Origin: Auriscalpium vulgare
Lineage: Eukaryota; Basidiomycota; Agaricomycetes; Russulales; Auriscalpiaceae
DNA length: 64,000 bases
Direction: 5' to 3'
NCBI GenBank assembly: GCA_019915015.1
Contig: JAHBBC010000004.1
Location: 1-64,000, forward strand
The position numbers and the translations under genes are program-made. Of this stretch, positions 9,526 to 57,715 are shown piece after piece. Every line of letters begins with the position of its first letter. Within the stretch, counting starts at the first letter, position 1. The notes under the pieces were generated by a model. It made no database searches, was not told where the DNA came from, and saw only the letters and a program-made list of their open reading frames with translations.

Positions 9526-9660
9526 TTACCAGCGGGGGCTCAAGGATAGAATAAAATCCAATAGCTCATACGACGCGCGACGAGGGCGCAAGTTAATTGT
9601 AGCTGTTTATTCTACAGTATACATGCAGTGAGAATATACTGTAGATACATAAACCAGCCC

Positions 9661-11016: not shown

Positions 11017-11967
11017 CTACAGCTCAAAGAAGATGCCGGTCGTCCGGCCGCGAGCGACGGCGTAGACAGGCATACGGTGCACCACCTGACCGTCTTCAGG
11101 TTGTGAGACCGAGACTGGGGCCTGCAAGAGACCGACGGAGAGTCCAGGCACCTGCGACTCAATCGAGGGCCAGGGTCGGTTCTCGGCGTTTTCCCACTCG
11201 CCCTCGCCCTCACCCCACGGCTCTCCGATGTTGGCCCATCCGGGCTCGTAGGGGTCGTTGGGGTGGATCTCGTAAGGAGGCGCGGGCGTGGTGGCCGGCT
11301 GGCGAGAAGTCGTGGCGGCCGGCTGGCAAGGAGGCATGGCGGCCGGCTGGCGAGGAGGCATGGCGGCTGACTGGCGAGGAGGCATGGCAGCTGACTGGTG
11401 CGTGCGTGGCTGGCGAGGAGGCACGGCGGATGGCTGGCAAGCGGGAGACTGGGGAGAGCGCGCGGTGGACGACTGGCGAGGAGGGGATGCGGCCGACTGG
11501 CGAGGAGGGGATGCGGCCGACTGGCGAGAGGGTGTTTGAGCAGCTGAGGAGCTGGCTGCGCGAACACTCATTGAGTCGAACATATCAATGAGAGCTGCGG
11601 CGGCGCTATTCTTCTCCATAGCTTCCTCTGCGAGCGAATACGAGGTATGTTTCTTGAACTTGAGGTCGGGGAAGCGGTTCAGCAAGGCGGAGATTGTCGA
11701 CCTGCCAGGAAAATGTGAGACCGGAGAGCTGCGAGTCATAAGAGACTAAGACGCACCAGTCAGTGTAGATGCCAGCGTACGGCGAGCTGGTGACGCCGTA
11801 GTAGGCGGTTTCACCAGGAACAGGTCCGTAAACCCGTCCCGGGAGAATCGGGGCGCTGACGGGGGCAGGAGAGGCTGTAGGTACGGTAGCTAAGATTGTC
11901 GTCGTGTTAGAATGGTGTCTGGCACTTGGTAAAAAGTACTGTACTTACACGCAGCGGGCACCTTCAT
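11017..11967 (-). CDS. RNase H1 N-terminal/viroplasmin-like protein, copy 1
   Basis: The start chosen is ATG at 11967 (MKVPAA), followed by an intron (donor GTAAGT). Exon 2 ends with the segment AGIYTDW; the tryptophan codon is split by an intron (TG|G), and exon 3 continues STISALLNRFPDLKFKKHTS then AEEAMEK. This pattern (YY, x-G-I-Y-x-D-W, F-x-x-A-x-E-A) matches the RNase H1 N-terminal (caulimovirus viroplasmin-like) fold, which binds RNA/DNA hybrids or dsRNA. The rest is a low-complexity Pro/Arg/Gln/Ala region (PPRQSAA repeats) and an acidic tail. It is divergent from the large gene at 12241 with a 273-bp gap. The last exon is intact; the fold call rests on the motif alone. Confidence 0.6.
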
Positions 11968-12240
11968 GGCCGTGGATTGCGGTCGTCAATGTGGTTCGGG
12001 TGATCGTTATCAGCGGAGCAAAGAGAGGAGGTAAAATGCGGCCAAATTTGAAGTCCGCCTTGATGCTCTCCGCTCTCCGCTCTCCGCTCCCCGAGACTTG
12101 GCCGCCTGCGCTGTATCTACCGCAGATCTACAGTGAGTGCAGATCTACAGTGAGCGCGGTCGGCAAAATCCTGTGAAAATGGTTGGAAAACAGCCGGGCA
12201 ATTGCGGCGGGCAATTTCCCATCACCTCTCCCTCACCACG

Positions 12241-15200
12241 ATGGCATGGACACTCCAGGAGCAAGAGGAATTTCTTTGGGAGTTCATGGACGACTATCTC
12301 GCAGCGCAGACGGCAAAGAGCGGCGGGGGAAGGTCCAACAAAGAGTTCAAGAAGCTGTGGTCGAGGCTTTACACCGAGTGGTTCGCGAGGTGGCCGGAAA
12401 CTGACGACAATGGTCAGTCTGTTGTGGACGGCCAACCTCACATGCGACTGGTGAGTGCATATTTCTCACAAGTGGAGTTGAATGGCTCACGGCTTTGTAG
12501 AGGCTCAACCAGTGGTTCTGGAACCACGGGCGCGCTGGGTCGTCGTCGAAAGGAAAAGGAAAAGGAAAAGGAAAGGCCAATTCCACGGCCGATTCGGGCT
12601 CCAGCAAAGGCAGCACGAAGAATACCTGGCACTTCATGAAGCCGACGCGTCGCTACGCCGCACACGAGGCGTATCTCCACGTCTTCTACACGACAACGGG
12701 TGAGGTTAGGAAGGAGTTCGACGACGCGTATGATGCGTACGTGACCGGCCTACCTGCTGGCGTCAAGGCAAAGACGCCCATGGTCTTCAAGAACGAGCTA
12801 GCGAAGAAAAAGCTCGAAACGGCTGACGCCGACGTTCTTCGACGTGTCGAGGAGGCGAAAAGTCGGATGTCGGACCTTGACATCGACTTTGAGGAAGACG
12901 AGGATGCGTCGCCCGAGGAGCGTGAGCGTCGTAGCACCCTGCGTCATCACCAACAGTGAGTAGCTTATTTATCAACTGTATATATTGTGCTCACCATCAT
13001 ACAGTGCCATTGACCAGCTGCCGGCGGCGTTGATGACCGTCGTCGAGGAGGTTCACCGTAGGACGGGTCTGATGGCGACCATCATCGTGGGCGGGCCGCA
13101 ACCCAAGGAAGCTGGGAAAATTAAGTCGTTCGCGTGAGTAGATGCGGTACGCGCGTGCATTCAAACCCACTCACATATGTGCAGCGTTCACTCTAGTCTT
13201 CCTGATGGCCGAAATTTTGGCACTGGCTATGCGGGCTTCAAGGAGAGCGTGCAAGACCCGTTCCGTGCGTTTCTGAACGCCATTTACTGTGAGCATCATT
13301 CGCGTATAGGCCGGTTGTACTTACTCACCAGCACTTCAGCCCCTGCTGTGTGCGCGCAGAACGCTCTGCCCAACCAACGCGCATCCTCAAGGGCACCCAT
13401 CGTGTCGACTGGGGACAAGCAAGAGTCGCCGGGGCCCTCCAATGCGATGGATGTTGATGAGGAGTCGACCGATAAGCCCGACCAACTGGCGGAGGCGGAA
13501 GAAAATAGTCAGAACAACAAGCAGGGCACCCCGGAGAATGACGACAACCTACATGACAAGCAGATGGAGGAAGATGAGGAGGAGATGGACACCAGCGACG
13601 AAGAAGATAAGAGCGACGACTTGGTCTGGAAAGATGATGGAAATGGTGGCCGACGTCGGATGCTGCCCCTCGAGCAGACTCGCGCTCGCAACATGGCCGC
13701 CATTGCGGCTAAATTCTCGGCGCTGGAGAAGGAGCTTGGCCTGCAGCCGCCCCCACCAGCCACGCTCCCGCCAAAGGCGACGAGAACGAGGAAGGCGAAA
13801 GGCGCTGCACCGCAGAGGCAATCTGCGCGTGCCAGCGATGGGTCACAGCTCGTGACATCGCCCAGCTCGGATGCGTTGCCCTCAGGCTCTTCTACCCTTG
13901 TCCCCAGTACCAACTCTACAGAACCCACCCTCGCAACGTCCACAACTCAGTCCACACCCGCGACTTCCTCTGGGCCTGGGCCCGCAACGTCCACGACTCA
14001 GTTGACATCCGCGACTTCCTCTGGGCCTGGGCCCGCATTCGCAGATCCAACTCCAGAGACCTCCACTGAGCTCTCTCGTACAACCTCCGCTGATTCCAGA
14101 CCCGTATCGTCCACCCAGCCTTTGCCGACTCCTTCCACGGAGCGCGCACCCTCCACAACATCAACGGCGGTAACAACGGAACCCGGTTCCACGACTTCCA
14201 CTGCTCGTGCACCCGCGACTTCAACGGAGCCTGCAACAACCGAGCCCGCGCCTGCGACTTCAACCGACGAGCCTGTGACAACGATCGCAACATCCACTGA
14301 GCCTGCAACAACCAAGCCCGCGCCTGCGACTTCAACTGAGCCTGCGACCACCGAGCCCGCACGTGCGACTTCCACCCAGCCTGCAATAGCTGAGTCTGCC
14401 GCTGCATCTTCCACTGCGCAATCTGCGCCCACTGGCATATCCTCCACTCAGCCCGCCGCACTGACTCCGGCGTCCAATTCAAAACTCGTGACGGCTGTGT
14501 CTGTGCCTGCAGCTACGACAACGTCGACTACCCCCAACCCTGCGCCCGCGACGTCGACAACAGCGCTCAGTAAGAACACGGACAACACGGCATCAACTAG
14601 CGCCAGCCCAGGAGATACCGACGACAAATTCCCCGAGTATCTCAAAGGCGACTACGATTATCTCAAGGTGGCTTGCTCCGGCGCTGAGTGGGACAACATC
14701 GTCATGAACTGGATGCGGTTAGAAGCGCGCTTGGACATTCCCTCCGAGGTACGTGGCTATATGTGATCATCATCATGATTCTGATCATGTTGGCAGGCGC
14801 GCGGTAAACATGTTCAGCTCGCGACAAAGTATCGGCCGACACAGATCAAGCAATGGACGGAACGTCACCGACAATACAACAAACCGCCAGCGACAGGCAG
14901 AGGCAAGGAGTTCGCGGCGATTTGGCGCAAGTGGTGGATCAGTCTGCAACCGTCATGGCGTGGGGTGACGTGGCCGCTGGCGCGCCCAACGGATGCACCT
15001 GCGGAGGGCTGGGGCGAGTTGCTGAAGGGCGGGCGCAACGGGTTTGTTATGATTCTGTTCACTCTCGCATGGTGGCTCAGCTCCGTGAAGACCAACACGG
15101 AGCAGAACGAGTGGGCATCGGCCGTCGAGGACGTTGATTGGGCGCTGTCGCAATTTGTCCGCGGCGCTCAGAAGCACCCATCCCCGGAGCCACTGGATGA

Positions 15201-15286
15201 TGAGCGGCAGGTGAAGCGGTACGTGATTCTCCTTTTGTATGATACCATCTCACTGACGAGCACAATGTCAGCCGGCGAAAGAAGTA
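12241..15286 (+). CDS. Large Ser/Thr/Pro-rich protein of the KDZ element, copy 1
   Basis: Six exons with good donors and acceptors: introns at about 12450-12499, 12957-13005, 13134-13184, 13290-13340, 14748-14798 and 15220-15271. The N-terminus (WTLQEQEEFLWEFMDDYLAA, then LWSRLYTEWFARWPE, NQWFWNH) is a compact aromatic helical domain. A middle domain holds the TMVVGGP-like segment (ATIIVGGPQPKEAGKI) and DGRNFGTGY. A long acidic then Thr/Pro/Ala-rich linker follows. The C-terminus (YRPTQIKQW, WWISLQPSWRG, FTLAWWLSSV) is conserved with the gene at 46842-49456, as are the N-terminal and middle domains. It ends RRRKK. No known domain was recognised. No frame damage was seen. Confidence 0.72.
13908..14480 (+). 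repeat. In-frame Thr/Ser/Glu/Pro repeat region
   Basis: Degenerate repeats of about 8-12 codons of the type ATSTEPATTEPAP inside exon 5 of the large gene. The other copy has a shorter region with the same composition, so the linker length is not conserved. Confidence 0.75.
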
Positions 15287-15479
15287 GGGTATACAACTCG
15301 CACGCGGCCATCCCACTCCCATCCCATGTGTCACTTCCCGTAGACTCGCTCTCTGTCCACATAGTTTTTGGTATGACGAATGACAAATCTTCCTGCTGCA
15401 TGCATATTGTATTGAGTGAAAGGGCACAATCTACTCTGTGACTCGAGGCGAAAATTGCCATGACGCGAAAATCACGTGA

Positions 15480-16330
15480 TTTGCACCGTACACTCCGACA
15501 CAATTCTACGAAGTGGATACTGTAGAATGGTCTGCAGCGGCAAGTATCCTGTAGAGCCGATATTCTGTAAAACCTCCCAGATCCTGTAGAATTGCCAGAT
15601 ATCCCGTGTACTGTGAAAACACACAGATCCTGTAGAGTTGCCAGATATCCCGTGTACTGTAAAATCACCCAGATCCTGTAATATGACCTGATATCCCGTG
15701 TACTGTAAAATCACCCAGATCCTGTAATATGACCTGATATCCCATATACTGTAAAACCACCCAGATCCTGTAATATGACCTGATATTCCTTATACTGTAA
15801 AACCACCCGGATCCTGTAAAACCACCCGGATCCTGTAATATGACCTGATATCCCATATACTGTAAAACCACCCAGATCCTGTAATATGACCTGATATCCC
15901 ATATACTGTAAAACCACCCGGATCCTGTAATATGACCTGATATCCCATATACTGTAAAACCACCCAGATCCTGTAATATGACCTGATATTCCGTATACTG
16001 TAAAACCACCCAGATCCTGTAATATGACCTGATATCCCATATACTGTAAAATCACCCAGATCCTGTAATATGACCTGATATCCCGTGTACTGTAAAATCA
16101 CCCAGATCCTGTAATATGACCTGATATCCCATATACTGTAAAACCACCCTGATCCTGTAATATGACCTGATATCCCATATACTGTAGAATCTCCTGCAAT
16201 GACTGCTATCCTGTAGAATATAGTACTCCTACACAATACTGTATTTTCCGCTGCAATGCCCGTATTCTGTACTGTAGAGCCAATGCTATTGCTATAATCA
16301 CAGCGACTTTCCTGCAATTGCAACAATACT
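15480..16330. repeat. 46-bp minisatellite, terminal array of KDZ copy 1
   Basis: About 13 copies of a 46-bp unit built on the blocks ATCCTGTAATATGACC, TGATATCCCATATACTGT and AAAACCACCCAG, clearest from 15565 to 16190. Flanking bases carry looser CTGTAGAA and CTGTAAAA motifs to about 16330. Because 46 is not a multiple of three and the unit lacks minus-strand stops, all three minus frames stay open; these are not genes. Confidence 0.88.
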
Positions 16331-16399
16331 GTTATTCTAGTGGTAGCTACGGCTCCATTTCGCTACTACTCCAGTCATATAGTTACCTTAACTACTGAC

Positions 16400-16760
16400 A
16401 CGGCTCCCTAGTCTCCCTGCCACCACCGCGCTGACGTTATGTCTCCCGCAGCATTTGAGGGCGGCCCGGGCATCGTCATCCCATCCGAGTCGGGCCCTAT
16501 AAGCACCTCCGACCTGCCCGGCGCCGGAAGCCTCTTCCCGCATTACGCAAAGACGTATGTGCTTCCGCGATGTCTTCCTACGCCCGCGCTGAGCAGAGCA
16601 TCGACGCGCTTCTTCTTATTTTCTTTAGCTGCGGGCGGCTGCCCCACGCTGATGCTTAGTCTCCCGCTGTGTATCACACTGACACATGACTCGTTCACGC
16701 CTACATATATGTGCCTTCGGAGTCTGGGACATTTAATCCCATGCGCATATAATGGGCTCG
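16400..16760 (+). pseudogene. Relic of the secreted repeat-protein gene
   Basis: An exon-like segment lies between an acceptor (TCCCGCAG, ending near 16450) and a donor at 16555. The intron that follows (16555-16596) starts GTATGTGCTTCCGCG and ends GCGCTGAGCAG, close to the introns of the gene at 19418. The segment encodes GGPGIVIPSESGPIS, similar in style to the GPG repeats of that gene. No signal peptide or complete frame was found. Confidence 0.45.
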
Positions 16761-38655: not shown

Positions 38656-38949
38656 TGCGGAATAACTGCGCCGCGCGGAAGAATGCCCAGTGCTCATGTG
38701 ATACCCACCGGGACACGAGGGACCTCCGACCAAAAATGCGCTACGTACCGCGCGCGTGCTCAAAGATCCGACCGAAGCCCGAGGTCAAGATAACGTCAAA
38801 TTTGCGGAATAACTGCGCCGCGCGGAAGAATGCCCAGTGCTCATGTGATACCCACCGGGACACGAGGGACCTCCGACCAAACATGCGCTACGTACCGCGC
38901 GCGTGCTCAAAGATCCGACCGAAGCCCGAGGTCAAGATAACGTCAACGC
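38656..38949. repeat. 147-bp tandem duplication
   Basis: Two direct copies (38656-38802 and 38803-38949) differing at only one or two bases near the join. The unit is a multiple of three, so a plus-strand frame runs through both (NNCAARKNAQCSCDTH twice). Whether this is coding is doubtful. Confidence 0.85.
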
Positions 38950-42083: not shown

Positions 42084-44338
42084 TTACACATGGTGAGGGT
42101 CGTGAAGGAGATCGTCGAGATAGGATATATAGTTTTGTATTGTGGCTCCGGCTTCGGATCCCAGCTGATCCACCTGGTCCCACCTGTCCCAGTCTCGAAA
42201 AGCAGCGTCGGTTCGTTGAAGAAGATCAACACGCAACATAGTCTCCGCCAATGTTTCACCGGCTGTGGGAAATTTAGCTAAACGACAAACAAGATATGTT
42301 CGACGGAACGCACTGAATACTCGCGGCTGCTGCCAGATCAACGTTCTCGCCCTCCAACGAAGGAGAAGAGTTCGGTCTAGTGCGCGTCATGCGTCGGTTT
42401 CGTCACAGGAACTTCGAACTCACCGTATCCGTCGAGGTTCTCCATCGGCTCGGGCTCATTTCCTGGCACCGGTCCTGGCTCTGTCACCGCGCTCGTCAGT
42501 AATTCGGACGGGCAGGCTCACAGCGCAACTCACCATATTCAACGAGGCCCGCCCTCGGCTGGAGCTCCTTTACTGGCTCCAGGCCCGTCTCTGCCACCGC
42601 GTTCGTCAGCGGTCCTCGCGCGCAGGCCCCCATTGCAACTCACCGAGCTCAGGTACGTCGTCCATCACGATGTCCTGCACGCCTTCTCCATCGCGTAATG
42701 GGTTCGTGGCCACCGAGGCGGTCGTGCCTGCACCCGGGTCTGACAAAGTGGCAATGAGCGAACGTCATTGCACGGCGCGTGCGACCGACCTGGCTGTTCG
42801 GTCAAAGCGCGCTCTCCCGAGTGTGAGGCATGGGCAGCGCTGGTTTCCGCGATACCTTTGGGTTCAACGGCTGCTCGGGATGATGAGAGACGGGGACGCG
42901 CAAGGATGCACGATACGATACTGACCACGCCGTTTGCCTCTCGCCCGATCCGTGAGGTCGGTAGAGGTCGCGCCGGTGGAGTTGCCTTCGGGCGGATCAA
43001 CTGTACGAACAGGCGATTGAGGTTAATGCGCCAGAACAGTAAGACATCACGGACCTCGCGCGTTGCGACCGCTGTCCAGACCTTCCATGTCCGGAGACGT
43101 GCGCGGCTCTGCATGCGGTGTTAGTATGTTTAAAGCGTGCAATGTAAGCACGTACCGTTCGCCTCGCCTTTGAACCCAAGCGAAAACAAGAACGGCGGCG
43201 GCACCAGCGGGGGATCGCCTGTCGGGTCGTCCATGGGGTGCGGAAGCTGTGTGGCGGGCCCGTCGCTTATGAACACCGCGCCGAGGGAACGCCCAGAAGC
43301 GGAGGTACACGCCAACGCACCTCTCCTTGCGCGTTGCGACCGCTGTCCAGACCTTCCTTTTCCGGGGACGTGCCTGACTCTGCATGCGGTGTTAGATCGT
43401 CTTACTGGTGTTATACAATGTAAGTACGTACCGTTCGCCTCGCCTTTGAACCCAAGCGAAAACAACAACGGCGGCGGCACCAGCGGGGGATCGTCTGTCG
43501 GGTCGTCCGCGGGGTGCGGAAGCTGTGTGGCGGATCCGTCGCCTATGAACACCGCGCCGCGGGAACGACCAGAAGCGGAGGTACAAGTCAACGCACCTCT
43601 CCTCTCTCAACGAGGTTATGAATCTCATCCATCACGATGTCCGGCACGCCTTCACCACCGTGCGCTGCATTCGCAGCCACCGATGCAGTCGGGCCTGCAC
43701 CAGGGTCTGATAATGGCAATGAGCGAGCGTCCTTGCACGACGCATGTGACCCACCTGGCGGTTCGGTCGCAGTGCTCGCTCCTGATTTTGAGGCATGGGT
43801 GGCGCCGGTTCCTGCGATGCCCTCGAGTTGAACGGCTGCTCGGATGATGAGAAACCTGCACGAGCAATGATGGACGGCGCGAAACTCACCGCGCCCTTCG
43901 GCACTCGCCCGGTCCATGAGGTCAGGAGAGGTTGCGCCGGTGGGGTTGCCTTCGATGACTTTGACTGTGCGAACAGGTGATTCAGTTTAGTGCGCCAGAA
44001 GAGCAGCATGTCACGGACCTTGCCCGTGGTCACCGTTGTCCAGGCCTTCCTTGTCTTGCGACGTGCTCGTCTCTGCCCTTGGTGTTAGATCGCCCAAAAT
44101 TTGGTTTATCCAATGTAAGGACGTACCGTTCCCGTCGCCTTTAAACTTAAGCGAAAAGAGGAATGGAGGGGCCACCAGCTGGGGATCGCCTGTGGGATCG
44201 TCCATGGTGGGAGTAGAGACGCGCGCAAGCCGTGTGGCGGTCCGCCGCTTATGAACACCGCGCCGTGGGAACACGCGGAAGCGGAGGTACCTACACGCCA
44301 ACGCACCTCCCTTCCACTCTATCCTCTCCGCTGTAACC
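42084..44338 (-). CDS. Uncharacterised gene with tandemly duplicated exon modules
   Basis: Three homologous exons encode MDDPTGDPPLVPPPFLFSLG-type sequence followed by FKGEANG (near 43180, 43470 and 44150). Two encode VRDMLLFWRTKLNHLFAQ-type sequence, followed by SDPGAGPTASVAAN and GVPDIVMDE (near 44030-43600 and 43060-42660). Two or three short exons end in a Tyr-Gly codon pair at a GTGAGTT donor (near 42650, 42530 and 42410). The terminal exon reads LRVDLLQRTDAAFRDWDRWD to 42084. DNA identity between copies is high, so the duplications are recent. Whether this is one long gene or several broken ones cannot be told by eye. Confidence 0.4.
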
Positions 44339-44560
44339 ATGGCTGCCATAGAAGAGCACGGCGAGTTCAACAGACGTGTGGCGCGCATTGTCGAAGCGGC
44401 GAAGAAGCTGCAAGAGTTAGGGCCCCTCCCTCTGTCTTCCTACCTCCAGAACCTCGCCCGTGAAGTGGTATGTATGATCCTACGGACTCCGGGGTATGCT
44501 AATGCATTTGCACAGACAGAAACAGTCCAGTACCAGAACAATGCCGAGCCCTGTCTGTCA
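44339..44560 (+). pseudogene. First exon of a helical-protein gene cut by KDZ copy 2
   Basis: MAAIEEHGEFNRRVARIVEA runs to YLQNLAREV at a GTATGT donor, matching exon 1 of the gene at 41212. The following exon is at most a few tens of bases before the KDZ element begins near 44570, and no continuation was recognised beyond it. Confidence 0.45.
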
Positions 44561-44724
44561 TTAAGGTAAACTTTGGCCTACTAGAGTAGCAAATCGAAAG
44601 TATCAATACCAACTGAATGTAGAACTTTACTATGTGCCTGCAATAACATCTACTTTGGTGGGGCTCTATAGGCGGCGTAGTAATCACTTTGCTCTACTTT
44701 CCAGGCCTCGGGATGGGTACTGTA

Positions 44725-46450
44725 GTGAGTAATTCACATAGTATTTACTTTTATCCGCGCGGGACGCTCACAAAGTGTTTACCTTCCGTCTGCAGTATTT
44801 ACTTCCACTCGTATATTCAGGCCGGGCCCTGCACGGGCAGTGTTTACTTTTGCCTGCGTGCGGTCCCGCGCCGCGCTCACATAGTGTTCAATTTCGATGG
44901 GATCTCCCAGTAAGTGTTTACTTTCGCTGGGATCTCCCAGTATTAACTTCCGCTCGGATATCCAGGCCAGGCCCTGCGCGCGCAGTATTTACTCTACCCG
45001 CGTGCGGTCCCGCGCTGCGCTCATATAGTATTCACTTTCGATGGGATCTCCCAGTAAGTGTTTACTTTCGCTGGGATCTCCCAGTATTCACTTCCGCTCG
45101 GATATCCAGGCCGCGCGCAGTATTTACTCTTGCCCGCGTGCAGTCCCGCGCCGTGCTCACATAGTATTCACTTTCGATGGGATCTCCAAGTAAGTGTTTA
45201 CTTTCGCTGGGATCTCCCAGTATTCACTTCCGCTCGGATATCCAGGCCAGGCCCTGCGCGCGCAGTATTTACTCTAGCCCGCGTGCGGTCCCGCGCCGCG
45301 CTCACATAGTATTCACTTTCGATGGGATCTCCCAGTAAGTGTTTACTTTCGCTGGGATCTCCCAGTATTCACTTCCGCTCGGATATCCAGGCCGCGCGCA
45401 GTATTTACTCTTGCCCGCGTGCAGTCCCGCGCCGTGCTCACATAGTATTCACTTTCGATGGGATCTCCAAGTAAGTGTTTACTTTCGCTGGGATCTCCCA
45501 GTATTCACTTCCGCTCGGATATCCAGGCCGCGCGCAGTATTTACTCAGTATTCACTTCCGCTCGGATATCCAGGCCAGGCCCTGCGCGCGCAGTATTTAC
45601 TCTAGCCCGCGTGCGGTCCCGCGCCGCGCTCACATACTGTACCATTTCGGAGATAGGCTCGCGGGGGTCAGCCTGTGACCATAAATTCCATATGCTCGTT
45701 CGGCTGGAAGTGCTCGCGGGACAGCGGGACCTGTGACCGAGCAAAAAATATGCTCGATCACATGATGTTAACTTCCGGCGGGGTGGCAGTGCACTAGTAA
45801 GCGCTGGGGTACAATTCTTGTGATCTCGACAGTCAACATCACGAGAATTGTACCCCAGCGCCTAACCGTCAACTGGACATTCGTGCAACTGGCGCCAAGT
45901 ACGTGCACATGCTCGCAACTTACTGTGACCTGTGACCAAGTGCGAAATATGCTCTGCTCGCGGGCCCCTGTGACCTGTGACCCGAGCATGTCTCCGAAAT
46001 GGTACAGTAGTATTCACTTTTCGATGGGATCTCCCAGTAAGTGTTCACATTTGATGGGATCTCCCAGTATTAACTTCTGCTCGGATATCCAGGCCAGGCC
46101 CTGCGCACGGTCCCGCGCCGCAATCACATAGTGTTTACTTTCGCCCCAATACCACTCGGCTGTTCAGGCCAGGCTTGTCCGCGTAGTATTCACTCTTGCC
46201 TGCGCGCGGTCCCCCACCTCGATCACATGGTGTTTACTTTGAATTGGATCCCCCAGAATTCACTTCTACCCGGATATTCATGCCAGACCCTATGCGGTAG
46301 TATTTATTATTGCCTGCGCGCCATCTGGCGCTGCAATCACATAGTATTTACTTTTGGACCACTCGACTTGTCGAGATCGGCAGACGGAAGTATATACTCT
46401 TTGTGGGCTCGGGAAATGCGAAGTTCACGTAGAGTCCGCACAGTGTTTAC
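44725..46450 (+). repeat. Left subterminal array, AGTATTYACT / AGTGTTTACT motifs
   Basis: Many copies of AGTATTTACT, AGTATTCACT and AGTGTTTACT, mostly followed by pyrimidine-rich bases. Between 44900 and 45620 they form units of 136 and 145 bp that alternate, giving a 281-bp higher-order repeat with GATGGGATCTCCCAGTAAGT and CGCTCGGATATCCAGGCC blocks. To the right (45650-46000) the array is interrupted by TGTGACC-type repeats and a short inverted pair around 45800-45860 (GCGCTGGGGTACAATTCT). Confidence 0.85.
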
Positions 46451-46841
46451 TATGTGCTACTCAGACAGACGAAGTTAAATGCAACCTTTATCATTGACGC
46501 GCGAGAGTCGAGAGTACAGTGGGTAGCAAAGAAAGGGCTACGCAACAGAACATACACAGATATGCAGTGCGTTGAGCACCGAGAGAAGCAGGCGTACAAA
46601 GACGGCGTGTTGAGCGCCGAGCAGTACCGTATCAGGGGAACCAGGAAAAAGCGACATGTTGAACGCCGCACAACCGAGCAATAATACTCCGGGACGAATA
46701 CTCCGGGACGCGTGTTGAAGCACCAGCACGGGTCGTAACAACTGGGTATCTTGAATAATCGTGCACCGTCGCATTAGGCGGCGAGACGTGCTGATTTGCG
46801 CGGCGCTGACTTGCCCGTTGATTTGCGCCTGGTTGTGACCG
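46451..46841. other. Spacer inside KDZ copy 2
   Basis: Only short frames of unlikely composition; nothing supported. Confidence 0.4.
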
Positions 46842-49456
46842 TCAGCAAATGTATTCCATCACAATATGAAGGACAAACTTCTTTTCAGGCGACTTGATCT
46901 CTCCGGAGGAGTCCGCAGATCGCTTCTTCCCGGCGTGAGTTTCTTCCTCAAGCACCAGGCTCTCGCTGACTGCCGGTTGCTTGTTCTGCAAGCGTGAGAC
47001 GAGATTGTCTGCGACCCACAATACATCCTCCAGCGCCGATTCCCATTCCCGTTGCTCCGTCACTGACATCGTTGCGCCGTACCAGAAGCAGAGGGAAAAC
47101 AGCACGAGCCCAAAGCCAGTGCGCCCACCTTTCATGCAGCTCTGCCACTCCTCGGAGGGACGCGCCTGTCTCTTCAATGGCCATTTTGCACCACGCCACT
47201 CCGGCTGGAGACCTATCCACCACATCCGCCAGTTGTCGGCATAGGCGTCGACGTCGAGGATGACGGGGGCTTCGAATAATCGCGGCTGCGAATCCAGCGG
47301 CTAACTTCGGTGGGGCGACTGCCCGTACTCGACAGCTGGAAGTTCTTTCCCTGAGAGAAGGTTCGGATATCAGTTGCTGATTGATAAGGCGAAATTGACA
47401 CGCACCTTGCCAGAGGGAAATCCCATCAGGTCCTCAATCGCGACCCATCTTTCTACCAGCGTCGTCCACCCGTTGTCGCCATCAATCGCCTCCAGGAGAT
47501 ACTCATATTCGGTGATTAGCCATGCTGGCCAGCGTGGGCGGTCTTCTGCGGATGTCGTATCCGGAGTGGCGCTCTCGGACGGTGTCATTTCGTCAATGAG
47601 TGGTACAGCCGCGGGGAGGGTCGTAGGAATGGCGGCATCAGGTGAAGTGGATGCCGGAGGAAGCGCGTCGTCAGCGGCCAACGAAGAGCTGCCATGGATA
47701 TGGGAAGAGTTGGACTCAGGCTCTTGGTGCGCCGTCGTCGTCGCTATGCTCGATGTCTGCGCAGGTGCGATAGTCGTCGGAGCACTAGCGCCAGATGAAT
47801 GAGGTGGGACTTCCGCGTCTGCGGACTGCCGGCCTAGTTCATCACCGGCGCCGGGCTCTGCGCTGTCGACTTGGCGCTCGTCGTCAACTCTGGTCAACGC
47901 ATTGTCAGCATCTCTCATTGCACAAACACCAGAGACACTCACGAAGGCTGTTCTTTGGACTTGATCCTTTCGGAGTGCCGCGGTGGTCCGGTCTCCAGAG
48001 CCAGAGCAGCAAGCTTCTCGCGCTGGATGGCTCTATCAGCCGCCGCTTTCTCCTCAACTGTTTGCGGCTTGTCTGAAGGTAAAACGCCGGCATCTCTCAG
48101 CAACTGCTGATTCCTCTCGATGTTAGCAAAACGTTGTTGCTCGTACGCCGTCCGCTTTGGAGGTGCCGTCACAATGGGAGCAGGTTCGACATCCTCGATT
48201 CTGTCGGCCTCGTAGTCATCGATGTCGGCCTCTTCCTCAGATGTCGCCTCATCGCTGGCCTCCGTGGACTTCCTGCGCTTTGCTTTCGACCGCTGCCTCT
48301 TCCCAGATGACTGATGAACTGGCGCTTTGTCATCGGCCGACGCATTAGACGACTGCGCGGAGTCAGGGACGGAGGACTGCGCTGTGTCGGACGACGTCAC
48401 GGTTTTGGGTTCCGATGCACCCGCAGCCGCACTGGACACTGTATTGCCAATATTTGCTGAATATGAGGTGAGCTCATTACTCCTTGTCGAATAAATGGAC
48501 ACGACTCACGATACACGCTACGCAGAAAAGTGCGGAACGGCTGCTCGACCTTTTCCTTGAATTCTGGGTACATGGTGGCGAAGTTGCGACCATCTTCAAG
48601 GCGCGTGTGGAGTCTGGATTGATTGCGGTGAGCACGCACACATAGATAGTATATTCTTCACTACTGACGCGTATGAAATGATCTTGCCATCGCCATCAGG
48701 CGACGGCCCGCCGACAAGCATCGTACAGGTCCAGTTCGTCAAGTCGTTAACCTGGCTAACGGCCAACGCCAACGTATCCGGCAACATCTCCACATTCCTG
48801 GGGAAGCAAATGGTGAGCTGCTCGGCTATCCTGCTATACGAACACGCACTTACCGTCGAACGGCTGCCTCATCCGACTTGTCCTCCACCTCATCGCCCTC
48901 ACGCGCCGCCTTGACGGCTGCGCGGACGTCCTCTGGCTCCTCCGCTAACAGTTGCTTACACTTTTCGTTCTGGAAGGCGAGCTTGCGATCGTCGTTAGGT
49001 ACTTCGCCCTCAGGAAGGTCGGCAATGTGTTTCGCCCACGCGTCGTCAACCAGAGGCTTCAGCCTCTTCCAGTAGAGCTGTTGGAAGATTTGATGCTCCG
49101 GCTTTTTGCGAGGCGCCTTTGCGGCCAGATTGAGAATACCGCCGCGTCGGCGAGTGCTGGCACGGACGGTATCGCGTGAGTTGTTGTTGAACCATTGCCT
49201 GATGCGCTTTAAAATGCATAGATGAGTATTATGACGCACTCCATGGTGTGAATGAATTACTGACCTTGTGGATGTCCGGGCATCCTTTGACAGCTGGCTT
49301 CGTAGACCCATCCATCGTCTCCGGAAATGCGAGGAACCATTCTGAGTAGAACTTCGGCCAAAGCTCCTTCACAACAAGCGAGCCCTTTGCCTGAGCCTCC
49401 TTGTACTCAGCAAGGTGCGCGAGCAGCCATTCGCTCTGCTCAGCAGTGGCCCACAT
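46842..49456 (-). pseudogene. Large Ser/Thr/Pro-rich protein of the KDZ element, copy 2, frameshifted
   Basis: Begins MWATAEQSEWLLAHLAEYKE at 49456, then LWPKFYSEWFLAFPE, a QWFNNNS segment, TCTMLVGGPSPDGDGKI, LEDGRNFATMYPEF, a long acidic/basic and Ser/Thr/Pro linker, LITEYEYLLEAIDG, RPTEVSRWIRSRDYSK, WWIGLQPEWRG and FSLCFWYG. Each has its counterpart in the same order in the gene at 12241. Between RDYSKP and the next segment the frame changes by one base at a run of five G (47265-47269). Either the run lost or gained a base or an unseen splice restores the frame. The last exon ends EYIC. Confidence 0.68.
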
Positions 49457-49634
49457 GTCGATGCAAGGAGGAGCAAGAGGACGCGTGCAAATGGTGGAGA
49501 AAGGGAAGTTTTCACTCAGCTACTCCGCCATCAGACCCGTACTGAGCTCCGCCAATTTTACTATGTCCCCTAGATCCATTTTACTTTCAGGAGTCCCGGC
49601 CGAGGGGACCGTGCGTGAGACGCGCGCGTTGCCT

Positions 49635-49642
49635 TATATAAA
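49635..49642 (+). promoter_or_regulatory. TATA box of the viroplasmin-like gene
   Basis: TATATAAA about 72 bp before the ATG at 49714, inside the 258-bp region between the two divergent genes. Confidence 0.5.
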
Positions 49643-49713
49643 GCGCGATCGGCACCTCGATCACTATCGTCTGCCCCATCACCCCGCCCCCCAGCGACGT
49701 GCTGCGACATACG

Positions 49714-50538
49714 ATGACTTCATTTCCTCCGCCCTCCAGCACTCCCAACGCCTCAGGTGCGTCTCTCAATTTTTAATTCCTCAATGTGTGTGCTCATTTT
49801 GCCACCCAGTTACCGAGGGTCTCCCGCCCGATGAGCGCCTCCCCAGCTACACGGAGGTGTTCGTCCCCGGCGCGAGAGCATACTATGTGATCCTGGATGG
49901 CAAATATCGTGGGATATACACTAACTGGTATGTTTCCCGCTCGTGCTGTCGTTTTCCATGCGTCTCATACTACGCCATGCTCCAGGGCTGTCGTTGGGTC
50001 CATTCTTCCCATCATCAAAGCCAATCATCGCAAGGTGTTCTCGTTCCACGATGCCGAAGAAGCTCTCCGGGAGTCCGATGTTGCCGTGGCCATAGTGACT
50101 GCCCATCTTGCAGGTCTGTCGGTCAACAGCGGCGATCAAGTCAAAGCGCCGGTCCAGCCTAAAGCTCCTGTCAATCCCGGAGCGCACGAGAGTGACGCAT
50201 CCTCCACGGTCTTGCAGCCTGCGCAACGCAGCGCCATAGCTGGTCCACTGCCCGCAGTGGCAACACAGCCAGCTCTGCCGTTGCCTCTGCTTTCGAGTGG
50301 CGAGCTTATCGCGCTTATCGCCTCTTCTGCGGATATTGGTAAGACCTTGTTCCCAATGCTCGGCGCCCATGTGCTCATTTCTTATCAGAAGAAGGCCGGG
50401 AAGAGTATCTCAAAGGACGCGGCGGTCGCCCTGCCGGTGGTGGTTGGCCCTACCTCGCAGTCGCTCGTGGACGCAAGCGTGGAATCTTTGCCAATTCGTG
50501 AGCCGCGATCACACCCTCTGACACCGATCGTACTCTGA
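49714..50538 (+). CDS. RNase H1 N-terminal/viroplasmin-like protein, copy 2
   Basis: Exons 49714-49756, 49810-49927 and 49986-50538. The fold signature is RAYYVILDGKYRGIYTNW, then AVVGSILPIIKANHRKVFSF and HDAEEALRESD. The tryptophan codon is split TG|G by the second intron, exactly as in copy 1. The rest is Ala/Pro/Val-rich and probably disordered, unlike the Pro/Arg/Gln-rich tail of copy 1. In RNase H1 this domain binds RNA/DNA hybrids; no RNase H catalytic domain follows here. The frame is intact. Confidence 0.65.
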
Positions 50539-51123
50539 CAATACGACCGCCAACAGGCCTGAAGCCAGCGCACTTGTTATTGGATATCCTGGGTTCTTGT
50601 CGAGGGGCTTTCGTACGGTCGGTGCGGCCCATCTGTGGCTACTTGATCATCCGCAGTAGATACATTCTCCGTCGTTAAATAGAATGAATCATGCTCTTGT
50701 TTTGGTTGGCATATATCAGATTGGTGTGAACATAAGATTTATTGCGTCCAATCGTGTGTGATTGCAACGAGTGGTGTTGAACGCGCACTTTGGACAGGCG
50801 TATCAGGCGTTAGAGGTGTCTCAAACATCTTGTTCACTCAGCAGCGAGACGAATGAGCCGATCTACGACTTCTGGCAACGACATATATAATGTATATACA
50901 TGCCCTACTGTACTAGAGGACTGCGATTGCTGACGATGTGAAGTAGTGGAGAGATCGTGCATATGTTGTGTGAGGAGTAGCTTGACGCGCTGTTCTTGGC
51001 TTGCACGCCTTTCTTGGCTTGCGCGCCTTCACTCTGACCTCCACTCATACCTCTGTGCCTCTTCCTCACTGCTCATCCCCACACCGTTTCCCAGTCACCG
51101 TCGTCTCGTCATAATTTCACTGA
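50539..51123. other. Spacer inside KDZ copy 2
   Basis: No supported gene; probably 3' and 5' flanking DNA of the two neighbours. Confidence 0.45.
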
Positions 51124-51870
51124 ATGCCTGACAAAGTTGATCGACGGCGGGAGGACTACATAAGGTGCGTGATCGTCCATGTTGTAGGCCAGGCAACGTA
51201 CTGAGTTCTGCATTTTCTTTCTTTCGTGCAGACATAAAGACCAGCGCCGCGAGTACCAGAAGGCATACAATAGCGTCAAACGTGCAAGTCGCCGTAAGGT
51301 CAGCAAGGAGCAGCGCCTTCGCGTCGAGCATGCACGAAAGATTGTGCGGCACTTCCGTTTGCCTACGTACGTTCTAGCTTTCCTCATAGGCTTCATTTTA
51401 CTCAACAATGAATGCCTAGGCCATTCAGGAGTGATATAGCCTCCATCTCGAAGGACGAAGATCCCCTGCGCACACCGCAAATGCGTCGCCTCGAGGAAGG
51501 TGTCTGGCAAGATTGGACAAACCATCGCGAGGACCTGATGGCAGCCCACGGCGACAATTGGATGCCGCTCTACATTGAAAACGTACGTGTCGCTATCAAG
51601 GAGCAGCTGGAGCATGTCAAAAGATTGCAAGACACCAACACGGCCTCGGAGACGGAGGTCCACGCGCATCGTAGGTTAATCGCGGGCTTACATCAGGAGA
51701 TCGACATCATACAGCATGGTACGGACGTATACGAGGCTTCGCTGTTTGAAGAAATGTTCATTTTCAGCGGTCGAGGGTACGTCTGCCTTTCATTTCTTGT
51801 TCTCATCGACGCTGAATGTCACCGTTGCAGGGTTCGCAGGGCATACTTTCTGCGTGTGTACGGATTCTGA
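51124..51870 (+). CDS. Small basic helical protein of the KDZ element, copy 2
   Basis: Exon 1 MPDKVDRRREDYIR, intron, exon 2 rich in Lys/Arg (YNSVKRASRRKVSKEQRLRV), intron (GTACGTTC...CCTAG), exon 3 with LRTPQMRRLEEGVWQDWTNH, AIKEQLEHVKRLQDTNTASE and AHRRLIAGLHQEIDIIQHGT, last exon ending RVYGF. About 210 residues, largely helical with a basic N-terminal third. No known domain. It precedes the transposase by 150 bp on the same strand, as does its damaged paralogue at 9661-10290. The frame is intact. Confidence 0.62.
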
Positions 51871-52016
51871 TGCAATGTTGATCCCCCATGTGTCTGCCGT
51901 GTCCGCCGTGTCTGCGCCGTGTCCCCTCCGTGCCCGCCATGTCCTCACCGTGCCCGCCCTTGTCTTCAACTCGTAGTAGTGTTATGTAATACATATCCTC
52001 TCTGTGTTGTATCCCC

Positions 52017-55000
52017 ATGCCTGGCCCTCGCCGCAAACGAAAACAAGCCGTTGTTACTGTCACCAGAGCGACTGACGATGCTGACCAGGTGCCGCCGACA
52101 CAAGTCGCCTCCCGACATATCAATATTGCGATTGGCTCAGGCCGCAGGCAAAAGAGGAAGCTCAATCATGCGACTTCTCATCATGTCGAGGATGTCGAGG
52201 TCCCCGCAGCTCCGTCTCTCCATTTTGAACCCCCTCCCGAGCCTGAGGACACCCCAGATTACTTCCCAGACTCTCAGATCGTCCATGTGGAAGATATTGC
52301 GGTACCGCGGCGGCGGCGGCGACGAGGACGGGCGCGTTCTTTCACACAGATTTCTGCCCTCTCGAAACTAATCAAAACTTAGGGTGCGCGCAAACCTATT
52401 GATGCATGGCTCCCATTCCGCTCGCAGTTTGTCGATGAACTGCTCCGTATGGAGGGTCTTGGAGACAACGAAAACCTACCCATCTGCGGTCGCTGCAAGG
52501 CGAAGGACAGAGAGATCCGCTGCGCAAGCTGTATGACAGGGGAGCATTTCTGCAGCAACTGTGTTGTGCTTGAGCATGAGAGGCTTCCCTTTCATCGTAT
52601 TGAGGTGCGTGCTGATTCGCATCAACGCGGCCATTTCATTCTAACAGTCTACACTAGAGATGGAACGGCCAATATTTCGAGAAGTACACGCTCTGCGCTG
52701 CCGGTCAGCGCCTTCAACTCGGCCATGGCGGCGGTATCTGTCCTCATCCCCTCGTCAAAAATACGCCCATGACAGTCATTGACATAAGCGGCATTCACGA
52801 AGTCTACATTGACTTCTGCGAGTGCGGCATCGTTGGCGCCGCACATCACTTCACCCAACTCCTTCGTGCCTCCCTCTGGCCTGCGACTATCGAACGTCCG
52901 CAGACTGCAATTACCCTGCGCACATTGAAGACATTTCATGCTCTCAATCTCCAGAGCAAACTCAATGCGTACGACTTCTGGTGCAGCCTTGTTCGCCTCA
53001 CGGATGGTATTGGTACACGTCCTCCAAAGGTCCGTCAATTAATCATTCTTGCACTTCCTTGCTAACGCATGGCCGTAGTACCGCTACCGAGAATTCATCC
53101 GGGTGGCACGCTTTTATCGAAATGTCCGTGCGCTCAAACGGTCAGCGCGCGGTCATGATCCTGCTGGTATCGAGGCAACGGCACCGGGCGCGCTTGTTGT
53201 GCAGTGCCCGCAGTGCCCGCAGCCCGGCGTAAATATGCCGGACGGCTGGGAAGATGCACCGGACAGTGAGCGGTAGGTCGGCTTCTTTTGCACATCAGCT
53301 ATTACTCATACCTTTCATACAGATGGAAGCACGCTATGTTCTTAGCCATGGACGCGAATTTCAAGATGAAGCTCAAGAATCGCGGTCTCGTCGACACTGA
53401 GCTGTCTCCTGGATGGAGCTACTTTGTCGAGCAAAAGACGTACAGCGCTCACTGCGAGAAGTACCAGCACGAACCAGAGGTACGCAATATCCTTATCTAT
53501 CAATCACGATTGTATTAAGACTGCAATGTAGCCGAAGTACTGTGATTCCAATCACGCCGCGGTCGACAAGGCGAACATGCCGACGCAACGCCGGTTCAGC
53601 ATCAACGGCGTCGGGGCTGTCGTCTGCTCGAGGCACTGCTTTTACCTTCGACATTCTGTTGGGGATCTCCGCTTTGGTGAAAGGTACGTCTATTGTTCTA
53701 AGTCCAAACAGCTTTCATTAACGGCTTGGTAGGTATGCAAGCATGGACTATATGTTGCTATCTGCACTCGCACTGTCTGCGCCGGCCATCAAGACGCTCT
53801 ACATCTCTTATGACATCGCATGCTCGTTCTCAAAGAACTTCCAGACCCGCATGCCGAGATACCCGGTCAATTTCCACATTGATCCGGAGGCCCTGCGACT
53901 TAAGTGGGGTGTTCCGAAGTTTCACCTCATCGCACACGGCCCCAAGTGCCAGACAGAATTCTCGCTCAACAATACGTGGGGAGTGGGGCGCACACATGGA
54001 GAGGGGGTAGAGACGGGGTGGGCAGAGCTCAACGGCTTCGCGTTGAGTACACGCGAGATGACAGGCCCGGCACGTCAAGAGAATCTAGATGATGCGTGCG
54101 GCGGCATCAATTGGCGCAAGACCATATCAATTCGTGAGTGCGACCCTGAATGATAAGAAGCAGTAGCTGATGTCACGCACCACGGAATCTGCAGCGCAAG
54201 CCGTGAAGAAGAGCTTGAAGGTTGCAGTGGAGGCGCTACGCAAGCAGCGCATTGCATTTGATGAATCCTGCGAGAACATCCCGCAGGACACGCAGGAGGA
54301 GTGGACAGAAATGATGCGTGCATATGAAATCGACAAGACGGCGCCGAATCCATACGAGGAGCCGGTTGTTGGTAAGTTCCGCTTCCCCATTTGCATTCCT
54401 CTTATTGATCCGGATCGTCCGCACAGCAATGTCCCTGGTTGATGTGCGCCTTGAACTGGCGGAAGAGGAGGCACGGGAGGCGGTCCAAGGGCAGCTATCG
54501 CCTCACGAGACGACAGCAAGCATGTTCTTGACGGTCGGTTTTGAATTGGAGGAGCAACAGTACGTCGATTCATTGTCGCTATACTAATGCTGCTAACTGT
54601 TGCCCAGACGTCTCGTACGGGAGAAGGCCAAGAGTGTTGCTGCCGGCGCCCGCATTGATCCGGAGGCATCGGAGTCATCAGGAAAGACTCGTCGGAGCAG
54701 AAGAACGCCAAAGGACCGGCACAATAGCGTCGAGAAAGTCGCGCTGCGGGAGAAGCAGGCTGTGCTCCGGCACAGACTCGCATCCTGGCGCCCCATTCAA
54801 CAACTCTACATTCCATGCGTCACTCAATTGCTCTCCAACTCGCAGGACACAGACATTGATGCCTTGGCATTCAACACTACGCCCTCAGCAAGTGATCACC
54901 CTGAGAACGAGGTTCTGTATCTGCCATCGCAGCTCCCGCTTGAGCTGCGTCGCACAGGATGTGTCTCTGGGCTGGCCGACAAGGAGCGACGGCTACGCTT

Positions 55001-56021
55001 AGCACAGGCTGAGGACGCCCTCTACCAGGTGCGTGATTGACCGCTCGAGCATACTGAGTGCACAACTGACTCTCTTAATTCGACAGGTGCGCCGCTCTCT
55101 ACGTATCCGCCACACGCATGTGCACTTCAAGCGCGTACACATTGCAGGCCCTGGGCAAAACGCAAACACGCGTGCGCGGACCTTCATTACGCGGCTGATG
55201 GAGAAGGTTACGCGTCATGCGCAGCGCTACCGTGCCGCGTATTCCGCTCTCGAGTAGCTCGACCCCGATGGCGACTGGAGGCACAAGCTCCGAGAGTTGC
55301 GTGACAGCGACCTCAAGGGACCGCGCCAGGAGCCAAATCAGCTCGGGAAAGGCCACTTTGAAGCAAGCTGGATATGGCGCAACTTACGACCGGACATCCG
55401 CGATGTTCCAGGGGCAGACGAGGATGCAACGGAGGCAGAGATTACAGACAGTACGTGCAAGTTGTTTCGACGCGTGGTTTCCCTTACTGAGCTTCTGTTA
55501 TAGGTGTCCGCGTAGACTGGGTAAATGCCAAGGCCCGTGTTGAGCGTTGGGAAGAAGAGATTGAGCTACTACAAGTTGAAATGGTACGCGCGGTACGTTT
55601 TATGCGCGCACGGGCAAACGAGTGGAGGGCCTTACTCAACAGCCGGCCTGATGTCCGCCCCGATATTGTGGCAGGACTGAATGCATATGCCCGCCGTCAA
55701 GCTGCTCAGTTCGACGAGATTGGGGACTCGTTCATCGCGTTCTGGAAGCCCCTCCTTGCGGGTTTGGAGCTGCCGGATCTCTGGCCAGAGGTCTCCAACG
55801 AGCCCGCGACATGCATTGCCGACTCCGCTCCACGATACGATTACGGTGCGCAAACGGAGGGCAGCGCACAATCTGACGATGGCACGGGCTCAGAGGGTGG
55901 TGAGGAGGACTCGTCAGACGAGCTGGACTCTTCTGCGTTGACGGCGGCGGGCAGATTGGATGGAGCCGACCTCATACAGCCAGGAGGTGACGTAGATAAT
56001 ATTATTGATGATGCGCTGTAG
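52017..56021 (+). pseudogene. KDZ transposase, full length but with one amber codon
   Basis: About a dozen exons. The order is a basic N-terminus (MPGPRRKRKQAVVT), the CxC2-type zinc cluster (CGRCKAKDREIRCASC), IDISGIHEVYIDFCECG, LKTFHALNLQSKLNAYDFW and ARGHDPAGIEATAPG. The DDE core follows: FLAMDANFKMKL (first Asp, near 53350), YISYDIACSFSKNF (second Asp, near 53805), and THGEGVETGWAELNGFALS (Glu, near 54000). Helical C-terminal parts follow (LYIPCVTQLL, RRTGCVSGLADKE, SWIWRNLRPDIRDVPGADED) and an acidic end. At 55255-55257 a TAG lies between ALE and LDPDGDW, where relatives have glutamine; CAG to TAG is one transition. Everything else reads through, so inactivation looks recent, or the codon may be read or edited. 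Confidence 0.82.
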
Positions 56022-56169
56022 GCGCGAATGAATTTTTTCCACGAGTCTGGACTGTGAGCCTTGCGGTAACAAAAAACCTTTGCAAGTCGTGACTTAGGTC
56101 GGCTATGTTCTCCAGAGTGATTACTACGCTATAGGCCGCACATGTACAAGGCACCCGTAGTAGTTACTA

Positions 56170-57310
56170 CTATGTACGCTAGGCTGCCTCAAGTCCTCGT
56201 AATAGTGAACACCGGCCATTACCAGCCGCAATGAATCCTACGCTATACGCCGCAATATACAAGGCGCAGAAATTAAATACCACGCATGCAGTGCCGGGCG
56301 GAGTGAAAGTAAATACTCGGGGCCCGCAGAGTGAAAGTAAATAAGGCTCCTGGAGTGAATACTGCAAGCAGGCTCCCGATAATGCGCGCCCGGAGTGAAT
56401 ACTGTGTGCCCGGATTACTGTGCGCCCGGAGTAATTACTACGTGCCCAGAGCGCGCCCGGAGTAAATACTGAGCATCCGGAGTGAATTCTGCACGCACGG
56501 AGTGAATTCTGCACGCACGGAGTGAATTGTGCGCCCGGAGTGAATACTGCGCGCCCGGAGTACTGCCCACCCAGAGTGATTACTGCGTGCCCGGAGTGCC
56601 CCCGGAGTGAATACTGAGCAGCGGAGTGAATTCTGCACGCACGGAGTAAACTGCGCGCCCGGAGTGAATACTGCGCGCCCGGAGTAAATACTGAGCAGCG
56701 GAGTGAATTCTGCATGCACAGAGTGAATTGTGCGCCCGGAGTGAATACTACGCGCCCGGAGTACTGCCCACCCAGAGTAATTACTGCGTGCCCAGAGCGC
56801 CCCCGGAGTGAATACTGAGCAGCGGAGTGAATTCTGCACGCACGGAGTAAACTGCGCGCCCGGAGTGAATACTGCGCGCCCGGAGTAAATACTGAGCAGC
56901 GGAGTGGATTCTGCACGCACGGAGTGAATTGTGCGCCCGGAGTGAATACTGGGAGTACTGCCCACCCAGAGTAATTACTGCGTGCCCAGAGCGCCCCCGG
57001 AGTGAATACTGAGCAGCGGAGTGAATTCTGCACGCACGGAGTAAACTGCGCGCCTGGAGTGAATACTGCGCGCCAGGAGTACTGTCCACCCGGAGTAATT
57101 ACTGGGTGCCCGGAGTAAATAATGCGCGTCCCTTGTGCACCCGCAGTGAATACTGCGTGCCAAACACCAGTGAATACTATGCATCCCTGTTTATGTACAT
57201 ATTGGCCCACACGGGGCCTGTAGTAAATACTGTAATGCGGCAAAGTAAATACAGCACCGTAAAATACCTGAGGTCTGAACACCTTAAAGGGTGCACAGTA
57301 ATTACTATGC
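56170..57310 (-). repeat. Right subterminal array, same AGTATTYACT motif inverted
   Basis: On the plus strand the motif appears as CGGAGTGAATACTG and AGTAAATACT, the reverse complement of the left array motif. Between 56600 and 57110 units of about 200 bp recur, with GCGCGCCCGGAGT spacers. A 381-codon open minus frame through this array is an accident of composition. Confidence 0.85.
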
Positions 57311-57420
57311 ACTGAAGTACACACTTTACTACGATGTATATGTATCAGCTAGTATTGGAACTTTGCATTTGCTACTGTACTAGACTAAAGTACTACTTTA
57401 CTAACCGACAGAGTTGCAAT

Positions 57421-57715
57421 GCCCGGGCCAACATACCTGTCCCTGGTGTCCTTAGAGTCGCCCTGGAGCAGGTCAAGTCTGCATTCGCTTCAAACGCCGA
57501 AGTCAACTTCCGCGCCATCCTCGACTGTCAAGACATGGTGGCCACCCCCTTGGCGCACGGACAACACCTAGGCCCCGATCAGTGGTGGAACACTCTCGGT
57601 CCGTTGCGTTTAAATCTGCTTCCGTTGCTCTGCTCAATTACATGCAGCCCGATCACTTGCGCGGAAACCCCGGACTCCAACTGCTGGTGTCGAACACAAA
57701 CAAGTCGGAAGAAAG
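57421..57715. other. Flank right of KDZ copy 2
   Basis: A short frame (LRVALEQVKSAFASNAEVNF) could be a cut exon of a neighbouring gene; nothing more can be said. Confidence 0.3.

Follow-up and report, generated by a model that had tools for sequence, protein, structure and literature searches.

A KDZ superfamily transposon of Auriscalpium vulgare with three helper genes, one for a predicted tandem RNA-DNA hybrid-binding protein

INTRODUCTION

The TET-carrying Kyakuja elements of Agaricomycotina, which belong to the KDZ superfamily, are described in the available text of one account as making 7-bp target duplications and having 5'-CA..TG-3' ends and no terminal inverted repeats (PMC12730594). 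KDZ elements that have terminal inverted repeats are already known as well, as excerpts of two further reports indicate (PMC12810828, PMC8290104). Here we analyze the first 64,000 nucleotides of contig JAHBBC010000004.1 of Auriscalpium vulgare (the window; positions 1-64000 of contig C4), together with a screen of the genome (51.6 Mb in 96 contigs), and describe a KDZ element at 44546-57416 that encloses, besides its transposase gene, three further genes, referred to below as helpers: a large gene, a gene for a viroplasmin-like protein, and a small basic gene. The element moves as one unit, makes 7-bp target duplications, and recurs in the genome with the same gene order. We regard it as a four-gene member of the KDZ superfamily, probably a cut-and-paste transposon of the autonomous type whose helpers are there for its own benefit. 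A search of the available literature found no paper that combines any two of KDZ, viroplasmin, Cauli_VI, and the RNase H1 N-terminal domain.

RESULTS

Boundaries, ends, and copies of the element

The window aligns with contig C26, in inverted orientation, over 44545-57416, and the flanks of the two copies are unrelated. The heptamer CAATGCC stands on both sides of the window copy (44539-44545 and, from the flank letters, 57417-57423), and the copy on C26 (C26:357548-370456) is bordered on both sides by GAGGTGC, a 7-bp target duplication of its own. Four empty target-like sites were found at 100% identity (C1:174116-174198, C23:473411-473493, C9:355572-355654, and C4:1932266-1932348), and at all four the hits to the left and right flanks overlap by exactly 7 bp, as read from the coordinates alone. 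Since these sites are uninterrupted copies of the target, the element spans 44546-57416 on the plus strand (12,871 bp, 5'-GAGCCCTGTC...GACAGAGTTG-3') and its duplication is 7 bp long. A preliminary description of the window, made from the letters alone, had placed the element at 44570-57420; the element stands, and its limits are corrected by the C26 alignment and the empty sites. Alignment of the window copy with the C26 copy from end to end shows 40 substitutions and 4 indels, 3 of the latter in arrays.

Both ends were also matched at C4:1113130-1125891, where they are 100% identical, and, at 78-84%, at C2:2939070-2952424, C22:380185-393916, C22:435625-449241, C42:124607-138309, and C25:189880-206734. 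Including the window and C26 copies, eight elements thus have both ends, and each encloses matches to all four genes; the element on C25 is longer than the other seven and falls outside the strict geometry defined below.

Terminal repeats and target duplications had been named beforehand as features to look for at the ends, and besides the 7-bp duplications we found imperfect terminal inverted repeats. These lie at 44551-44616 (plus strand) and 57345-57411 (minus strand), each delimited by alignment to the other end; they start 5 bp inside the ends and are identical in 51 of 67 columns. Their inverted-repeat score was reached by none of 500 shuffles, and the direct orientation scores far lower. 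Two subterminal arrays of AGTATTNACT follow inward. The left array (44740-46352) holds 22 occurrences, all on the plus strand, and contains a 136-bp tandem array at 44793-45529, while the right array (56308-57231) holds 18, all on the minus strand; none occurs in the element core between the arrays or in the rest of the window. Counted in left-end stretches only, four further elements hold AGTATTNACT in the same relative orientation (21 in L032, 28 in L033, 5 in L035, and 1 in L034). The arrays are likely candidates for binding sites of the transposase or of a helper. The order first noticed in this copy, namely, array, large gene, viroplasmin-like gene, small basic gene, and KDZ transposase, was recovered, with a second, inverted array added at the right.

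Transposase, large gene, and small gene

The transposase gene (52017-56021, plus strand) encodes a basic N terminus and a CxC2 domain (within 52658-53035; 123.9 bits, cutoff 27) that precedes the KDZ domain (PF18758, within 53722-54150; 117.7 bits, cutoff 26.6, model positions 97-217 in the searched exon), as a CxC2 region does in intact Pleurotus KDZ transposons according to the available part of PMC7641404. The small basic gene lies at 51124-51870 on the plus strand, its 3' end set by similarity to the annotated relative P0002; its relatives are 187 to 188 amino acids long, and a domain search of the gene and these relatives found no known domain. We considered it as a possible N terminus of the transposase and ruled this out, since it is a gene apart and the first exon of the transposase begins at 52017. 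Relatives of the viroplasmin-like and small genes carry consecutive locus tags twice (FA95DRAFT_1613006/_1613007 and FA95DRAFT_1607657/_1607656), and one annotated model, P0005, is a merger that spans parts of both genes. Three protein database searches of limited sensitivity, with the large protein not among the queries, returned 1, 2, and 3 proteins, all from A. vulgare.

The large gene (46774-49456, minus strand) has about 7 exons, their ends read by eye, and encodes a protein with a basic C-terminal tail. Six of its exons were searched for and found in the same order in L032 to L035; four are present in copy 1, the truncated relative described below. The gene matched no Pfam family at the cutoff. 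The exon that is a candidate for an HMG domain, exon 2, gave no Pfam match either, and a PDB profile search with it gave three weak, unrelated matches, none of them to an HMG protein. A divergent HMG domain was reportedly described in KDZ elements by Iyer et al. in 2014, and the large gene may be the HMG-domain protein of these elements.

A predicted pair of hybrid-binding domains

The viroplasmin-like gene (49714-50659, plus strand) encodes a protein that, by profile matching, has a pair of RNase H1 N-terminal, hybrid-binding domains and no nuclease domain. The two domains matched PF01693 (Cauli_VI; cutoff 21) at 43.2 bits in the window copy and at 63.4 bits in copy 1 (10838-11827, minus strand), where the first domain alone scored 33.6. 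Two annotated relatives with two matching stretches each, P0001 and P0004, reached 45.1 and 35.2 bits, and the merged model P0005 remained below the cutoff at 16.2 bits. A gene model that read through an intron fell below the Pfam cutoff and was rejected; the relative P0001 revealed the second domain. The preliminary description had seen an RNase H1-N-like hybrid-binding protein here, a reading that the sequence supports, and two domains are present rather than one. No Pfam match to the RNase H catalytic domain was found in P0001, in the copy 1 protein, or in the window model. An NCBIfam RNase H model is matched in its N-terminal part by the first P0001 domain (E of 8.5e-5, 22.6 bits, far under the whole-protein cutoff of that model), and P0001 gave no RNase H1 match in the PDB. 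A long low-complexity linker separates the two domains. In a four-sequence alignment, the first domain has an invariant tyrosine, tryptophan, and Arg-Lys pair, which may correspond to hybrid-contacting residues of the human RNase H1 domain.

A truncated relative in the same window

Copy 1 (8099-16355, minus strand) is a diverged relative of the element that starts with GAGCC at 16355 and ends at 8099, before the KDZ domain. It is 98% identical to C57:61628-69810; the match stops at 8099, and the KDZ domain of the C57 relative lies beyond this breakpoint, at C57:60889-61299. All gene classes are detectable in copy 1, with the transposase reduced to its N-terminal and CxC2 part, and no KDZ match in it is among the matches listed. 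By these alignments copy 1 is a truncated remnant, in agreement with the inverted and truncated copy first placed at 8090-16330. It begins with the same GAGCC as the element at 44546-57416, and its array unit is different. In the exons compared, the two copies differ at 61% of amino acids in the large protein, 50% in the viroplasmin-like protein, 60% in the small protein, and 48% in the transposase (CxC2 part). Differences of this size speak against a recent segmental duplication, and the earlier claim that all four proteins are paralogs of low to moderate identity holds.

Just outside the end of copy 1, 51 bp at 16356-16406 match, in reversed orientation, short stretches that lie about 2.6 to 2.9 kb from large-gene matches in other helper-carrying groups (C20:158545, C26:179168, C10:355180, and C8:1398571). 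This segment may be what is left of a neighboring element's end.

Helpers accompany KDZ loci

We asked how often the helpers lie near KDZ transposases, all tests being made within this one genome. The KDZ search scored 150 of 204 candidates and gave 168 matches, of which 150 were listed and merged to 108 loci; Plavaka transposases, 80 loci merged from 127 rows, served as a control. Among the matches listed, 39 of 57 large-gene loci, 21 of 26 viroplasmin-like loci, and 35 of 39 small-gene loci have a KDZ locus no more than 15 kb away, compared with 3, 0, and 3, respectively, that have a Plavaka locus at such a distance. A strict geometry was then defined upstream of the KDZ locus: large gene on the opposite strand at 6 to 10 kb, viroplasmin-like gene on the same strand at 3.3 to 5.4 kb, and small gene on the same strand at 2.0 to 3.8 kb. 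The viroplasmin-like list used for it comprised 31 loci, the 26 of the 15-kb test and five added later, and some of the eight PF01693 hits in this list may be host genes. Among the 108 listed KDZ loci, 16 had all three helpers in this geometry, 9 the large and small genes, 1 the large and viroplasmin-like genes, 11 a single helper, and 71 none, so that 26 of 108 had at least two. No Plavaka locus (0/80) had any helper in this geometry, and no KDZ locus (0/108) had two or more in the mirrored arrangement. Because the limits were set after the 15-kb result was known, it is these controls, and not the absolute numbers, that carry weight. In the element's own genome, co-occurrence within about 15 kb, the check that had been proposed, held against the Plavaka control, and the strict geometry held against both controls; the helpers did not lie mostly apart from KDZ transposases, nor did the ends fail to bracket them, eight elements enclosing the whole set. 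Since other elements of the genome keep the same helpers, these genes probably serve the transposon itself.

Three groups of helper-gene matches have stayed together but lie more than 15 kb from any listed KDZ match (C8:1401214-1405767, C22:638711-641439, and C19:255307-260113). They are possibly truncated elements like copy 1.

Selection and joint divergence

Between the L032 and L033 elements, dN/dS was 0.109 for the large gene, 0.139 for the viroplasmin-like gene, 0.309 for the small gene, and 0.117 for the transposase (dS of 0.31 to 0.48), as computed from exons found by similarity only, which favors conserved parts. Three other, more diverged pairs gave 0.08 to 0.28 where dS was computable; dS was saturated for the small gene and the transposase between L034 and L035. 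The compared exons of all four genes are under purifying selection. Among six elements (copy 1, the window element as copy 2, and L032 to L035), distances correlate in all six gene pairs (r of 0.82 to 0.93; p of 0.0014 to 0.0028, 720 permutations), which argues that the helper set and the transposase diverged together.

CpG transitions and TET genes

The 40 substitutions that separate the window copy from the C26 copy include 33 transitions, and 30 of these 33 fall in CpG (p of 1.7e-13, against a baseline of 29% for all G and C bases in the element). This pattern suggests deamination of methylated CpG after insertion.

Across the genome, TET/JBP (PF12851) was matched 17 times, and 11 of these matches exceed the family cutoff. 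None of the 17 lies in the window, in keeping with the absence of a TET/JBP gene from the element as first described, and none lies in any of the eight delimited elements. Six are found at a fixed 4.6 to 4.8 kb upstream of one separate KDZ group, in opposite orientation (C8:1574222, C9:159284, C9:497651, C13:543874, C13:411399, and C14:942433), and two at 14.3 kb upstream of another, so that 8 of 17 stand at fixed offsets from other KDZ groups; two more are 21 to 24 kb upstream of KDZ loci. The remaining matches are more than 25 kb from KDZ loci, save one at 21.5 kb from the helper-carrying C2:2948667, outside that element. One member of the 14.3-kb pair is also 11.8 kb downstream of the helper-carrying C10:99314, but shares its offset with the other member. 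With so few TET loci, the separation of TET from the helpers is suggestive only.

Other features of the window

The contig opens (1-240) in a frame that by eye resembles a reverse transcriptase (FYGIPKIHK...), and three blocks of degenerate AACCCT telomere-like repeats follow within 2027-3553, an arrangement like that of telomere-associated Penelope-like elements. Two Plavaka transposase domain fragments lie at 4017-4567 on the minus strand. Tandem duplications were seen at 38656-38946 (147-bp unit, 99% matches) and 43054-43604 (276-bp unit, 88% matches). A pattern scan of viral contigs gave 12 pattern stretches, none of which was confirmed.

DISCUSSION

We propose that the KDZ transposase recognizes the terminal repeats and the facing AGTATTNACT arrays, brings the two ends together, and excises the element, and that the three helpers would be kept for the element's own benefit. 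The large protein has a basic tail that resembles a nuclear signal; it and the small basic protein would most likely help at the ends or in chromatin. For the viroplasmin-like protein we tentatively favor a role in which it would coat RNA-DNA hybrids (or double-stranded RNA) at the transcribed element and so lessen RNA-guided silencing or methylation of the element at CpG. According to the available part of PMC7888926, a construct engineered to hold two RNase H1 hybrid-binding domains and no nuclease bound hybrids with a Kd of 10.4 nM and double-stranded RNA weakly. The broader proposal, that a natural nuclease-free tandem hybrid binder shields the element from both RNA-guided silencing and CpG methylation, and so forms a second antisilencing route in one superfamily, parallel to the TET genes beside other KDZ elements of this genome, is somewhat less likely.

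Several observations weigh against our main interpretation of the element. The window copy of the large gene has a frameshift that is absent from the C26 copy. The only match of the viroplasmin-like protein to a solved structure is weak, the copy 1 protein hitting the hybrid-binding domain of human RNase H1 best (PDB 3bsu, E of 0.0087), and an AlphaFold2 model of P0001 built from 3 sequences had a pLDDT of 31. Helpers were also found more than 15 kb from a listed KDZ match, at 18 of the 57 large-gene loci, 5 of the 26 viroplasmin-like loci, and 4 of the 39 small-gene loci; several of these are still grouped with other helpers, and the listed KDZ matches are 150 of 168. The viroplasmin-like gene went undetected in 9 of the 26 multihelper loci, the dN/dS values carry the bias toward conserved parts given above, and the many listed KDZ loci with no helper in the strict geometry imply that only part of the superfamily carries the set.

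In the strongest competing explanation, the helpers act in transposition itself instead of opposing silencing. The viroplasmin-like protein would guide excision or the choice of target by binding to R-loops or hybrids, either in the end arrays or where targets are transcribed, and the large and small proteins would be cofactors that bind the ends. Tight linkage to the transposase, the strict segregation of the inverted arrays, and a large-gene dN/dS as low as that of the transposase all fit such a role, whereas 71 of 108 listed KDZ loci without a helper in the strict geometry indicate that the KDZ core may not need them; we consider it possible but on the unlikely side. Passive capture of host genes carried as passengers has a precedent in a Pleurotus Helitron with a captured viroplasmin-domain gene (PMC4289320, in the part available), yet unselected passengers would hardly show dN/dS of 0.11 to 0.31, correlated divergence, and the same three-helper geometry at 16 KDZ loci, and we judge this very improbable. 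Although 10 of the 80 Plavaka loci have a listed KDZ locus within 15 kb and the window itself holds Plavaka fragments, an association arising merely from different elements standing side by side in transposon-rich regions is scarcely credible, given that no Plavaka locus fits the strict geometry, that in each of eight elements one pair of ends encloses the four genes, and that left and right flanks meet at the empty sites; chance clustering of unrelated elements was ruled out by the Plavaka and mirrored controls and by the element ends.

Multicopy gene families of unassigned function are common in mushroom genomes. Three such families are here parts of one kind of transposon and are kept under selection. 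If the hybrid binder does counter silencing, the element would offer a simple example, open to testing, of interference with RNA-DNA hybrids by a DNA transposon in place of the erasure of methyl marks. With its ends exactly placed and its array motif defined, assays of binding and of transposition can be designed.

In its architecture the element recalls En/Spm, which has inverted arrays of short motifs at both ends and a helper protein, TnpA, beside its transposase; the arrays and the helper are alike, and the transposase is unrelated and the target duplication of another length. The viroplasmin-like protein belongs to the same domain family as the hybrid-binding domain of human RNase H1 (3bsu) and, like Drosophila RNase H1 in the available part of PMC7657459, has two such domains; unlike the RNase H1 enzyme, it has no detected catalytic domain and has a long low-complexity linker. 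A viroplasmin-domain gene on a fungal DNA transposon is also seen in the Pleurotus Helitron HELPO1.3, which carries capE; that element differs in being a rolling-circle Helitron, its capE is described as captured, and the sections of PMC4289320 at hand mention no KDZ transposase. Closer are KDZ1 to KDZ3 of Cryptococcus, elements of about 9 to 11 kb that have been shown to move and that share the superfamily and the presence of terminal inverted repeats; in the text available from PMC12810828 they differ by CxC1 in place of CxC2, inverted repeats of 139 to 241 bp, duplications of 4 to 8 bp, and no such helper set. With Kyakuja, as described in the available text of PMC12730594, the element shares a KDZ transposase, 7-bp duplications, a TG 3' end, and an accessory gene inside the element; it differs in starting with 5'-GA rather than CA, in having imperfect inverted repeats of about 67 bp, and in carrying three other helpers and no TET/JBP gene, and the word "subterminal" does not occur in the main text of that paper. 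The imperfect inverted repeats weaken kinship with Kyakuja, and because of them we do not file the element there.

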